A stretch of DNA of 64,000 nt. Origin: Cytobacillus firmus (GTDB lineage Bacteria; Bacillota; Bacilli; Bacillales; Cytobacillaceae). This document shows, in pieces, positions 2,892 to 62,456 of this stretch. The translations under genes and the position numbers were made by a program. Numbering within the stretch: position 1 is the stretch's first letter; every line of letters begins with the position of its first letter. The notes below the pieces were generated by a model. It was not told where the DNA came from, made no database searches, and worked only from the letters and a program-made list of their open reading frames with translations. Where the stretch lies: contig NZ_CP098323.1 of NCBI RefSeq assembly GCF_023657595.1, positions 4,674,001-4,738,000 on the forward strand, read 5' to 3'.

Positions 2892-2903
2892 TAGGCATAA
2901 ATA

Positions 2904-2930
2904 AACCGAGCTGAGTGGCAGCTCGGTTTT
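2904..2930 (+). terminator. Factor-independent terminator of the DUF1672/SA1320 pair
   Basis: A 9-bp perfect stem AACCGAGCT/AGCTCGGTT with a 7-base loop is followed by TT and a pyrimidine-rich run. It sits just after the stop at 2891. Confidence 0.85.
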
Positions 2931-2960
2931 CCTTTTATATAGGCTGTATTTGATAGTTTT

Positions 2961-3296
2961 TTTGCAGAATTTAATTGTCTATTTGCAAATTGATTATTCT
3001 ATTTGCAGGTTTCCAGCAGCTATTTGCAATTTTCATTTCTCTATTTGCAAGTTTCAGGCTCCTATTTGCAAGCCCATTGTTTATTTGCAGGTTTCCAGCG
3101 GCTATTTGCAAATTTGATTGCTCTATTTGCAAGTTTCCGGCTCCTATTTGCAAGCCCATTGTTTATTTGCAAGTTTCCAGCGGCTATTTGCAAATTGATT
3201 GCTCTATTTGCAAGTTTCCGGCAGCTATTTGCAGGTTTCAGGCTCCTATTTGCAAATTTAATTCCTCTATTTGCAGATTCCATAATTCTATTTGCA
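2961..3296. repeat. Tandem array of 17 TTTGCA words, about 21-bp pitch
   Basis: The word TTTGCA, mostly within CTATTTGCAAGTTTC-like units, occurs at 2961, 2982, 3002, 3023, 3044, 3065, 3084, 3105, 3126, 3147, 3166, 3187, 3207, 3228, 3249, 3270 and 3291. Spacings are 19 to 21, mostly 21. The bases between the words vary much more than the word. The array fills the space between two convergent genes and starts 31 bases after a terminator. Because 21 is a multiple of three, long spurious open frames of low complexity run through both strands. Confidence 0.95.
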
Positions 3297-3378
3297 AATT
3301 CGCCAAACCGCCAAAGGCCTGCTCTTTATGCAGCCGCTGGTAAGTGTAGTGTACGATTTAAACAAACGTTAGATTGAA

Positions 3379-3876
3379 TTATTCTGCCCTCTCAAGATAC
3401 TCCCCTAACAGCTCTTTAAAAAGCTCATTCAATTCCTTATTTTTCTGCTCCTTCAGCCATTCCACCTGGTTAATGGGCAGGTTTAATTTAAGTGTGATTT
3501 TTTCATTGGGCATCTCCACTTTTCGAATCTGTTCCAGGGTAATGCCAGCTTCAATATCGGGAAAATCCGGAGCATCCTCTCTTATTCTTAAGAGCCCTTC
3601 ATATGACTCTTCCGGATCTATTTCGCAAAATAAGCTCAGCCGGGGCAGCTTTCCTGGCACAGCCTTTAGAAACATAAAGGAGCTTATCTGCCTGCCGTCC
3701 TCCAATACAACTTCTGTGATCAGACTGTCCCTGTCCTGATATTTTCTTAGAGTAACTTCGCTAACAATCATGTCTACTTCCAGCGTACTTCCGGATGACG
3801 ATTCAAAAATATAGATGGCACTGTTAAACACATATATTTCTTCTCCATCAAGATTTATAAACTTTATAGCAGACAT
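3379..3876 (-). CDS. Hypothetical protein, 165 residues
   Basis: I do not recognise this family. The ATG at 3876 is chosen because GGGAGG lies about 9 bases upstream; an upstream in-frame start adds 19 residues of unlikely composition (MLRQCYCLMQ) and has no binding site. The protein has an N-terminal beta-rich half (residues 1-90, alternating hydrophobics such as IYVFNSAIYIF) and an acidic helical C-terminus (VEWLKEQKNKELNELFKEL). No signal peptide or membrane segment is seen, so it should be cytoplasmic. It stands alone, converging on the SA1320-type gene across the repeat array. The size and acidic, beta-then-helix make-up resemble the immunity-like proteins at 30-35 kb, but no homology is claimed. 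Confidence 0.6.
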   Translation of the reverse strand: MSAIKFINLDGEEIYVFNSAIYIFESSSGSTLEVDMIVSEVTLRKYQDRDSLITEVVLEDGRQISSFMFLKAVPGKLPRLSLFCEIDPEESYEGLLRIREDAPDFPDIEAGITLEQIRKVEMPNEKITLKLNLPINQVEWLKEQKNKELNELFKELLGEYLERAE

Positions 3877-4343
3877 CCTTGTTCCTCCCATATTCCATAA
3901 AAGCTGCATCAAACAATAGCATTGTCTTAGCATATTTAATAAAGCGCAAAGCTGCTGAGTCTAATTTCAACATTTGCTTTAATAGGGTCAGCATTCAATG
4001 TAAATCTATAAATATAATGTAACATACGAAAGCATAGCCCACTATATATACGTACCCTTTACATGTTACTAAATTCGGAGCAAGGCTTTGCTAAAGAAAT
4101 TTCAGGAGAAGTTCTGAGGAACTAGGGTGTGCTCTCTTCCAGCACTAATTTTTCAATATATCTTAAACAAAGAAAAACACTCTAGATGCTGGCATCTACA
4201 GTGCTTGACTTTTTGTTTGAAATTTTTTGTGGGGGGTTTAGCAATAACCAAAGAAGAGAAAAAGAGGGGAAAATATAAACTTTGCTGTGTAAATGATCTG
4301 TTAAATTACACTTTGAGTTTTAATTTCAAAGGAGATTGACTTT
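3877..4343. other. 467-bp intergenic region, no convincing gene
   Basis: The region is AT-rich. A 70-codon frame at 4127-4339 on the plus strand lacks a ribosome binding site and has cysteine-rich, unprotein-like composition, so it is not called. The only structure noted is the hairpin at 4178-4203. Confidence 0.6.
4178..4203. terminator. Hairpin with flanking A and T tracts, possible terminator
   Basis: An 11-bp stem with one mismatch, CACTCTAGATG/CATCTACAGTG, has a 4-base loop. AAAGAAAAA lies on its left and CTTGACTTTTTG on its right, so it could stop transcription from either side. No gene obviously ends here. Confidence 0.4.
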
Positions 4344-17017: not shown

Positions 17018-17322
17018 CATACTACCACTCTAGTAAATCACTCTTCTTTTTAGCGTACAATCTGATATTTGTAAAAATTGAGTAAACTATAAAAAATAAG
17101 CAAATGTGCATATATAATCATCAGGCATTAAGACCCTAAAACGGGACTCCCACTAATCTTTTAGCACTAGTTTTCTGTTTTGCAGATATAATTTTATAAT
17201 TTTGTAATCATAGTAACCTTTTACTAAAATGTATCTGGATATACGCTTGCGGAGCTTACACAGGTGGCATTCCGAATGTGACATTTTTAGAGAAATGGCC
17301 ATCGCGAGGCTTTTTTTAGCTT

Positions 17323-17454
17323 TTTGCATGAGTGGAATTATTTTATTTGCAGTTTTCGGGATTCTATTTGCAGTTTTGGAGATCTATTTGCAAGTTTAGG
17401 GATTCTATTTGCAACTATGATGTTTGATTTGCAATTTTATTCCTTTTATTTGCA
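17323..17454. repeat. Second TTTGCA tandem array, 6-7 copies
   Basis: TTTGCA occurs at 17346, 17367, 17387, 17408, 17428 and 17449, with a possible outlying copy at 17323. Spacings are 20 or 21 apart from the first (23). The word and pitch are those of the array at 2961-3296. It begins 18 bases beyond the terminator of the LysM-3D gene and lies upstream of the nuclease gene. Confidence 0.9.
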
Positions 17455-17471
17455 GTGTTCACAATTGGGAA

Positions 17472-36033: not shown

Positions 36034-36320
36034 GCTCTTCCTCTTTTCAAAAAAAGTTTGTAAGAACATATCCTTACAAAAGAACTGTTCCCCTGTAAGT
36101 GCTGGCCGGTTGCGCTACTAGCTCGAATTCATTCAAGCGCCCAAATTACCTTGAATTCTCATTGCTTCCAACTTGTTCTATTTATATGTCTATAGTACTA
36201 GTATCGGTTTGGTATCACAATTTTAAATGCTCTGCTTTTTCATATGCTGAAAATTCTAATAATTAAACATTAAGACCCATGATTCCCATAATTAGTAAAA
36301 GTAGAATAGAACTGTAAGAA

Positions 36321-37910: not shown

Positions 37911-37998
37911 CCGCACAGAAAAATTTCTATCCACACAGAAATTTGGGTTAAAAGCACAGAAAAAATCTTATCCGCACAGAAATTGAGGCTATCCGCAC
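37911..37998. repeat. CCGCAC tandem array, 5 copies, 20-21-bp pitch
   Basis: TATCCGCACAGAAATT-like units have the word CCGCAC (or a one- or two-base variant) at 37911, 37931, 37952, 37972 and 37993. The complementary word in the opposite orientation forms the array at 62369-62456. It starts 40 bases after the hydrolase stop and precedes the hairpin at 38060. Confidence 0.85.
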
Positions 37999-38059
37999 AT
38001 AATGATTTTTATGAATGCATCTAGTTGCAGTTTTAGATAAAATATCTTCTAAATATGCT

Positions 38060-38118: not shown

Positions 38119-38590
38119 CTGCTTCGGGTTTGTGCTGGAGGGCAAATTAGAGGCGAAGGTTACCCCCGGGTTCGGACTGTATCTGGCGCTTTCCTGCTTT
38201 TTGTGTCTGAAGTTGGACCGGGTTCGGACTCTAACTCGGGCGCTCGTACATTCTGTGTCCGAAGTTCTCCCGGGTTCGGACTCTAACTGGCGCTTTCCTG
38301 CATTCTGTGTCCGAAGTTACCCCAGGTTCGGACTCTAACTGGCGCTTTCCTGCATTCTGTGTCCGAAGTTACCCCAGGTTCGGACTCTAACTGGCGCTTT
38401 CCTGCATTCTGTGTCCGAAGTTCTCCCAGGTTCGGACTCTAACTGGCGCTTTCCTGCATTCTGTGTCTGAAGTTCCCCCGGCTTCAGACTCAAAGTGGAT
38501 AATTTCTGCTTTCTCTGTCTGAAGTTGCTCCAAGTTCAGACTCAAACTCCATCATTTCTTCTCATTCGGTCCGAAGTTACCCCAGATAAA
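38119..38590. repeat. Tandem array of about nine 52-bp units with inverted words
   Basis: TTCGGAC or a close variant recurs at exactly 52-base intervals: 38171, 38223, 38275, 38327, 38379, 38431, 38483 and 38535, with a degenerate copy near 38119. In each of the central units GTCCGAA lies 18 bases before TTCGGAC, so every unit can form a 7-bp hairpin with an 11-base loop. Central copies are nearly identical (CTAACTGGCGCTTTCCTGCA) and the outer ones decay. The array fills the gap between convergent genes. Confidence 0.95.
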
Positions 38591-62216: not shown

Positions 62217-62368
62217 CAATAGATTAATATTTGCTTCGGAAGTTGGGGGAAGGTGCAGAATAGGGGTAAATTTGCTGGTTTATTACTTAAAGATTTATTT
62301 TTTCCTCTTTAAAGCAGTAGATTTCCAGCTATTTTTTAACAGTGAATCCCTATGTTTTTTCTTTTTGT

Positions 62369-62456
62369 GTGCGGATAGGGACAATTTATGTGCGGATAAG
62401 TTTTTTTATGTGCGGTTAGACCTGATTTATGTGCAGATAAAATTATTTAAGTGCAC
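62369..62456. repeat. GTGCGG tandem array, 5 copies, 20-21-bp pitch
   Basis: TTTATGTGCGGATAA-like units have the word GTGCGG (or a one- or two-base variant) at 62369, 62390, 62410, 62431 and 62451. This is the reverse complement of the word in the array at 37911-37998. It lies 40 bases beyond the murA terminator and upstream of the spoIID promoter. Confidence 0.88.

Follow-up and report, generated by a model that had tools for sequence, protein, structure and literature searches.

Rows of phased short words in Cytobacillus firmus that are built like one end of a Tn7-like transposon

Plasmid iterons and partition repeats are tandem sites, each of ~20-22 bp, at which a replication or partition protein is bound along one helical face, and they are found on plasmids next to rep or par genes. 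CRISPR arrays alternate repeats of ~23-47 bp with unique spacers of about the same size and are accompanied by cas genes, and the ends of IS21-family elements carry the IstA-binding repeats known as L1/L2 and R1/R2. The spacing published for the IS21 repeats is 23 bp, each repeat containing a CS1 and a CS2 sequence (PMC10122671). Tn7-like elements are described as generally having arrays of TnsB-binding sites, with three and four such sites at the ends of Tn7 itself (PMC8649781). In Staphylococcus, the STAR elements consist of a short conserved word separated by variable, locus-specific spacers; they are intergenic, vary in copy number, occupy loci that differ between species and have a distinct last 'anchor' spacer (PMC3532100).

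Here we describe arrays of short words in Cytobacillus firmus; among named repeats, STAR comes closest to them. The analysis started from a window of 64,000 nucleotides, positions 4674001-4738000 of the chromosome (4,981,461 bp in one contig, NZ_CP098323.1), in which the main array is called A1. The arrays resemble STAR in all the features listed above, but STAR has a single GC-rich word of 14 bp, spacers of 40-44 bp and 1-7 copies, and neither a two-turn pitch nor a family of words. Membership of STAR was rejected, as both the array word and its spacing mismatch the consensus T(G/A/T)TGTTG(G/T)GGCCC(C/A) with spacers of at least 40 bp. The dimensions of CRISPR do not fit either, the array word being 8-9 bp long with 11-14 bp between words. 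Unlike iterons, A1 has no match among plasmids: a blastn search of 72,556 plasmid records and of phages at E<=1e-5 returned nothing. The initial annotation of the window knew of no named element with this design. Judged by titles and abstracts, searches of open-licence papers turned up no description of these arrays and none with this pitch, but STAR and the TnsB-site arrays share part of the design.

Array A1 and its locus in related species

On the + strand, 17 copies of TTTGCA were counted between 2961 and 3296 (starting at 2961, 2982, 3002 ... 3291), and the 16 steps between them, of 21 bp in twelve cases and of 20 bp and 19 bp in two cases each, all fall within the 19-21 bp that had initially been noted. 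The wider word is (C/T)TATTTGCA, of which the TATTTGCA part is found in 16 of the 17 copies; defined by this wider word, A1 extends from 2959 to 3296 (+) with a mean pitch of 20.6 bp. Its spacers are free except for a second T-tract ~10 bp past the word start. The window as a whole is not enriched in TTTGCA (79 occurrences, compared to 81.6 expected from shuffles), and it is the phased clustering of the word, rather than its abundance, that sets A1 apart. Tandem Repeats Finder reported for A1 an 82-bp higher-order unit in 2.9 copies, and A1 is therefore partly a product of local duplication; the higher-order periods found within it are 61, 82 and 123 bp.

A1 lies between convergent genes and just beyond a terminator, as the initial annotation had it. 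The ORF on its left (777-2891, +) codes for 704 amino acids and gave only a sub-threshold match in Pfam, and the ORF on its right (3379-3933, -), of 184 amino acids, gave no match in a Pfam search. The intrinsic terminator of the left-hand ORF is located at 2903-2929 (+), A1 starts ~30 bp downstream of it, and the outer end of A1, AATTCGCCAAACCG, occupies 3297-3310 (+). ORFs also cross A1 itself, yet the pitch is not a multiple of three and the frame shifts along the array, which speaks against a coding function. A scan with Rfam gave no match within A1; the only match at gathering score elsewhere in the window was a c-di-GMP-II riboswitch at 36095-36178 (-), with 57.8 bits.

The A1 locus was searched across 36 congeneric genomes, which yielded 20 loci, our own included, with both flanks placed in 14. 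These 14 comprise our own locus and those of six relatives, with arrays of 6-17 words, one relative in which one exact word is left as a remnant, close to an extra ORF, and six relatives in which the flanking genes are separated by 100-160 bp without any word. The array is thus kept in 6 of the 13 relatives in which both flanks can be read. Six further loci were placed by the right flank only; one of them contains 22 exact words within 800 bp, or 56 units when chained, and the other five contain none. In one congener, the stretch upstream of the query gene (L240) contains an intergenic repeat of another type, with scattered CGGAAC and GTCCGC words in both orientations.

Across species, copy number and spacers vary at this locus, and word and pitch are constant. 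When pairs of units within the same array were compared, the TTTGCA columns differed in 0-15% of the pairs and the columns +12 to +18 in 58-70%, percentages that are dominated by the relative with 56 units; with the word columns nearly fixed and the spacers so different, an exact minisatellite was rejected. Among units paired by their nearest spacers in eight genomes, our own included, there were 0.034 differences per column in the word and 0.318 in the spacer, a comparison that slightly favours the word, as the unit finder allows up to 2 mismatches in it. These values bear out the initial view that the sequence is kept for its word and pitch and not as an exact repeat. Nor do the copies expand and contract freely without a conserved pitch, the alternative then envisaged: their number varies and the pitch is constant.

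Further arrays, other words and a defined end

Besides A1, the window contains three arrays, two of them with the word TGTGCGGATA. The second TATTTGCA array, A2 (17321-17454, +), has 7 TTTGCA words at steps of 20-23 bp and is located between two - strand ORFs, adjoining what appears by eye to be a terminator-like repeat. Its end motif, TGTGAAC at 17457-17463 (-), which reads GTTCACA on the + strand, lies 2 bp outside the last word. Array B1 (37911-38002, -) consists of 5 copies of TGTGCGGATA (TATCCGCACAgAAA on the + strand) spaced by 20-21 bp, and array B2 (62365-62454, +) of 4-5 copies of TTATGTGCGGATA, also at 20-21 bp, with an outer unit, AAGTGCACAATCC, that reads TGTGCAC on the other strand. 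Beside B1, from 38154 to 38585, there are ~8 copies of a 52-bp unit in which TCCGAAGTT...GGTTCGGACTC words stand in mirror arrangement.

Over the entire 4.98-Mb chromosome, the pattern TATTTGCAN{11,14}TATTTGCA matched 156 pairs (91+65) and its reversed control none, and TGTGCGGATA formed 11 pairs at the pitch, again with none for the control. The exact TATTTGCA pairs are unevenly distributed along the chromosome, none being listed from 2.995 to 4.452 Mb. The stretches of this genome that were read contain 31 TATTTGCA arrays in 22 loci, and the longest array has 41 words. With regard to a replication-strand bias, all 5 loci in the interval from 0.38 to 1.88 Mb are on the - strand, and of the 17 loci from 2.28 Mb onwards 11 are on the + strand, a pattern that may be explained by gene direction. 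Higher-order repeats of ~200-255 bp occur at loci other than A1.

A de novo scan for chains of 8-mers (up to 1 mismatch, at least 4 copies) was run on 441 kb of the same genome. It found 23 arrays at a lag of 18-23 bp, one of which looks coding, and 6 at the double pitch of 39-43 bp, together with one array each at lags of 24-29, 29-34 and 36-41 bp and none at 10-13, 12-17, 13-17 or 30-35 bp. Within these 441 kb, GGCCGGTAAA and TTTTCCC(T/C)AATTT are further words repeated at about the same pitch. None of 39 word runs overlapped a predicted gene, a count in which many runs are one array listed twice and for which the gene finder called 77% of the 441 kb coding but misses genes. Many of the arrays adjoin terminator-like repeats, as judged by eye.

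Eight other Bacillales genomes were scanned over 200 kb each, the stretches of G357, G271, G181, G415 and G269 being chosen at known TATTTGCA matches. At a lag of 18-23 bp they gave 34 arrays, 23 of which look non-coding by eye; these are found in six of the eight genomes, often have other words and keep a pitch of 20-22 bp. Other lags gave 2 arrays at 12-17 bp (G398), 4 at 24-29 bp (G357) and 7 at 36-41 bp (two each in G415, G357 and G271, one in G018), and the remaining lags none. With our own genome (G000) included, the nine genomes had 57 arrays at a lag of 18-23 bp, of which 12 were discarded by eye as coding or low-complexity (one each in G000, G398, G181, G261, G269 and G018, three each in G357 and G271). 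The 45 left are distributed over G000 (22), G357 (7), G269 (6), G271 (4), G415 (3), G398 (2) and G181 (1), with none in G261 and G018. Their words are TCCGCACATAAA, TGCAAATAAA and GGCCGGTAAA in G415, which is taken as C. oceanisediminis; TTGATAAA, TTCATAAAG, TTTATCAACA and TTATTTGCAGTT in G357; TATTTGCAACTT (at a pitch of exactly 20 bp), CAGTCACTTT and ATCGGGCACTTTT in G271; TTGGCTGACAAA and TGGCGGATATA in G398; TTTAATTGCACC in G181; and GGTGCAAC (at 21-22 bp), TTGAACAGAAA and GTGATAAATAAA in G269. Scanning relatives for phased runs, as had been suggested initially, thus shows that such arrays are present in relatives and not confined to one genome.

Across the order, at least one TATTTGCA pair was found in 37 of 397 genomes. 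In 24 of these 37 there are only one or two pairs, perhaps by chance, and the reversed control also matches in some genomes (e.g. G008, with 5). Within the genus, 25 of 36 genomes have a pair, 17 of them at least 10 pairs, and 11 have none. Among the matches listed, triples come from Cytobacillus, Gracilibacillus, Gottfriedia, Mesobacillus, Metabacillus, Fictibacillus and Bacillus sp., and the matches listed in other phyla include Bacteroidota, Planctomycetes, cyanobacteria, archaea and others. Triples of TATTTGCA at a pitch of ~20-21 bp were seen in the Bacteroidota contigs L098, L102, L137, L155 and L158 (Bacteroidales, Prevotella). In Gracilibacillus oryzae (L094) the word shifts along the array from a TTATTTGCAACTT-like form to TTCTTGCGACTT, with the pitch almost unchanged, which is possibly word evolution in progress. 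Arrays of the Cytobacillus type also occur in L103, L140, L142 and other records titled Paenibacillus sp. FSL R5-0490, and in L125, titled Pseudomonas sp. ISL-84; these titles may be wrong.

A logo made from the 22 loci of our own genome reads T-C-[TATTTGCA]-R-R-T-T-T, is near-random from +13 to +17 and T-rich thereafter. Its information content is 1.4-2.0 bits across the word, a value raised by the collection of words at up to 1 mismatch, compared to 0.01-0.2 bits at +13 to +17. The pitch over the same loci has a mean of 20.53 bp (sd 0.73, n=241), and the variance of the steps rises linearly along the array, so that there is no long-range register.

About half of the arrays have a defined end. 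In our own genome 15 of 29 arrays, some of which are near copies within one locus, and 11 of 20 loci have GTTCACA, with up to 1 mismatch, exactly 2 bp past the last word, compared to 1 match at 50 other offsets and 2 on the far side of the arrays; the other 14 arrays, A1 included, do not have it at the fixed offset. Among arrays in the named loci, it stands at the same +2 offset in 32 of 134 (next best offset, 6) and is absent from that position in 102. Read from outside, the end is TGTGAAC-NN-TGCAAATAG. Each of the 11 sites that match TGTGAACNNTGCAAATA in our genome with up to 1 mismatch is the end of an array, and GTTCACA itself is not enriched there (45 occurrences vs a median of 39 for permuted words). 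In 5 of 7 A1 orthologues, a GTTCACA match with up to 1 mismatch lies 1 bp past the last word; judging from these, our own copy of A1 may have lost its end motif. In G357, GTTCACA is found near the end of five arrays that have another word, with a further word outside TGTGAAC, and the motif is therefore not always at the very end. An array of G269 starts with TGTGCGCGG-TGATAAATAAA. Four arrays of G357 (6373, 6529, 119090 and 132493) show several GTTC/GAAC motifs around GTTCACA at their ends, with distances of 11 and 21 bp between those that were measured, and these ends are more elaborate than those in Cytobacillus.

Comparison with the ends of Tn7-like and IS21 elements

Ends of Tn7-like elements were sought upstream of tnsA-like ORFs adjoining TnsB (PF09299) genes, and 5 of 20 such upstream stretches contained a clear one; L453 and L458 contained partial or separate ends, and the remainder showed no clear end. 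L417 reads TGTGGCTTTGAAATAAAG and then a series of words with a step of exactly 20 bp, between which the spacers are free. Those in L420 and L459 resemble it, and those in L415 and L419 are less regular. In L415, L417 and L419 the end is preceded by an ORF of 600-606 amino acids, which from its place is taken as GlmS. The separate end in L458 (G397), at 1247-1314 of the reversed stretch, has TTATCAA words at 20 bp and lies ~0.8 kb upstream of the tnsA-like ORF in the opposite orientation. Tn7-like ends have a 5'-TGT(G) outer end with the first word ~9 bp in, as do the capped arrays (15 of 29 in our genome, A1 not among them). They share with the arrays in general a single word orientation, free spacers and an A/T-tract in the word, and the pitch is similar (20 bp in the Bacillales loci L417, L420 and L459, 20.53 bp in the arrays). 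They differ in the number of words, which is ~four in the Tn7-like ends read here vs up to 41 in our own arrays, and our own arrays, unlike Tn7-like elements, are one-sided and have other words.

A profile search for TnsB (PF09299) over the whole of our own genome gave no match. Among the 11 best caps there is one inward-facing pair within 10 kb, at chromosome positions 4617590/4620021 (L031, L032), where two TATTTGCA arrays capped by TGTGAAC and 2.4 kb apart enclose a gene with a NERD domain (PF08378) and two small ORFs; L103 may be arranged similarly. A second inward set with weaker first sites, 4653015-4653460/4660926 (L033, L034), consists of several repeated capped arrays that face an array of 29 words at a distance of 7.5-7.9 kb. 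Neither set is flanked by a 5-bp target duplication, which speaks against mobile units between the inward-facing arrays.

Array words in phase were found in none of 89 IS21/TnsB loci (L324-L412), a set with one looser, chance-like match and in which most of the TnsB loci are too short to reach the element ends, and in none of 49 further loci (L413-L460, L463). When the capped end of A2 was compared to plasmids by blastn at E<=10, 64 records matched (Borreliella, Klebsiella and others), which were judged to be chance matches. Viral contigs gave no match to a pattern of the cap with two words; an earlier pattern scan of viral contigs had matched 10 stretches. There is no array just downstream of glmS, the classic Tn7 site, in our own genome. 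The arrays are built like a Tn7-like end, but since our genome has no PF09299 match, the two inward sets show no duplication and none of the elements searched shares an array word, A1 is not classed as one.

The ends of IS21 elements were aligned for 13 loci of the genus, for L337, for loci of the order up to L371 (without L372-L382) and for the IS21 of G269; the alignments were too weak to give real ends in, for example, L324, L328, L331, L337, L354, L356, L359, L370 and L371. IS21 ends share with the arrays a TGT end, repeated short words and an AT-rich spacer, and the word of L330, TTGCAAAATAAAAG, resembles TTGCAAATAAAG of the arrays. They differ in their pitch of 23-24 bp (six ends measured, vs 20.5 bp in the arrays), in the alternation of two half-words, in the number of repeats, which is usually two at each end, and in the presence of istAB. 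IS21 was rejected as the source of the arrays, the architecture being alike but the pitch different and no words shared.

Candidate explanations and their meaning

As read from the DNA, the arrays combine a word and a pitch that are kept, an end in about half of them, turnover of spacers and copies, several word families and an intergenic position. The base-exact conservation of the word and the two-turn pitch suggest that the arrays are bound by a protein, and the anatomy, so like that of a Tn7 end, points to a binder that would be transposase-like. The leading candidate, which we nevertheless consider somewhat less likely than not, is that a DNA-binding protein of the transposase type docks along the array, which perhaps serves as a beacon of transposition immunity. 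Each site would consist of the 8-9 bp word and a T/A-tract one turn further, and with sites two helical turns apart the protein molecules would line up along the same face of the helix. Such a row would correspond to one Tn7-type end, with its outer 5'-TGTGnnC, its first word ~9 bp in and words every 20-21 bp. As the arrays are one-sided and long (41 words in our own genome, 56 in one relative) and no TnsB gene is present, the binder, probably a DDE transposase with two HTH domains (TnsB/IstA-like), would arrive with mobile DNA or would be a tamed relative. In the least certain step, transposase sitting on the array would displace the AAA+ target selector from DNA in the vicinity, as in target immunity; alternatively, the row might soak up transposase and so spare the host chromosome.

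Conservation of word and pitch would also be expected of phased sites for a host architectural or insulating protein, such as a nucleoid protein or a barrier between convergent units, with no link to transposition. Its molecules would be stacked along a single face of DNA that is not transcribed, and paralogues of different specificities would account for the different words. This explanation, which we consider possible though rather unlikely, agrees with the lack of overlap between word runs and predicted genes, with the many arrays beside terminator-like repeats, with the 13 of 17 array-rich Cytobacillus genomes that are without a TnsB match and with the retention of A1 in 6 of 13 relatives. 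It does not lead one to expect a one-sided, fixed TGTGAAC that is also found at arrays with another word, nor the patchy distribution, 11 of 36 congeners having no TATTTGCA pair and six relatives being cleanly without A1. A selfish or neutral repeat resembling STAR, expanding and contracting by slippage and recombination through copying that itself needs the word and without selection by the host, is improbable. The higher-order periods of 61, 82 and 123 bp in A1 and of ~200-255 bp elsewhere are signs of local duplication, the copy number ranges from 6 to more than 20 between species, and the linear growth of the step variance, without long-range register, speaks in the same sense. Plain slippage, however, predicts that spacers are kept, whereas +12 to +18 differ in 58-70% and TTTGCA in 0-15% of comparisons, and the pitch of 20-22 bp is constant over unrelated words and genera.

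The initial annotation had offered phased protein binding or DNA curvature as explanations; binding is the best reading, word and pitch being kept, but curvature found no support. In the latter case, the words would act as phased T-tracts that bend the helix, and there is indeed T-richness every ~10 bp within the unit. In a wedge model applied to A1 and six other arrays, the value of A1 was reached by 1 of 60 full shuffles and by 2.3% of random genome windows, and that of the array at 4660359 by 0 of 40 shuffles. Yet 44 of 60 versions of A1 with shuffled spacers were as curved or more so, which argues that the spacers are untuned. One of the six other arrays was strongly above its shuffles, two were marginally so and three were not (shuffles reaching the value, of 40: 39 for G269, 22 for G271, 13 for G415, 3 for the G000 array at 4822289 and 2 for G398), and the word is fixed to single bases, including G and C, that bending does not need. 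By this model, curvature is not a shared feature of the arrays, and we hold it to be very unlikely as their explanation. The chances of an RNA-level element, in which a transcribed array would be bound or folded, are likewise slight. The + strand of A1 folds better than its shuffles (z -3.2, with 1 of 100 as good), because the word is nearly self-complementary, but the other strand is unremarkable (z -1.3), no Rfam family matches A1, A1 lies beyond a terminator, and a pitch of 20-21 is a number of the DNA helix.

For the docking row of a transposase-type protein, the use as an immunity beacon can be considered further. Among Cytobacillus genomes, those with many TATTTGCA arrays have TnsB genes less often (4 of 17, vs 12 of 19 of the others; p 0.023, phylogeny uncontrolled), although this contrast may reflect shared ancestry. 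Chromosomal TnsB sites confer immunity up to 190 kb away, as recounted in PMC4321384, which reports no immunity in its own Salmonella strain. An immunity beacon would be consistent with this behaviour of TnsB sites, with the existence of more than one word family and with the scarcity of TnsB in array-rich genomes; against it are the uneven distribution of pairs, unlike an even cover, the lack of an array at glmS and the absence of the end in about half of the arrays. A wider proposal, which we consider distinctly improbable, is that the Bacillaceae have a DNA-only defence against transposons, made of rows of transposase words in which each family is matched to one transposase and works by target immunity in trans. 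The words would have been copied from the ends of circulating Tn7/IS21-type elements or would have converged on them, and the transposase of an invader would dock on the row and drive the AAA+ selector off the chromosome, so that the element could not settle.

If this defence existed, the word families would be a record of the elements met by the lineage. In effect, each word represents the binding site of a putative protein. If the binder is transposase-like, transposition immunity, known from Tn7 and Mu, would here be a host trait without a transposon, and if it is a host protein, the arrays would represent a new way of organising the DNA between convergent genes.
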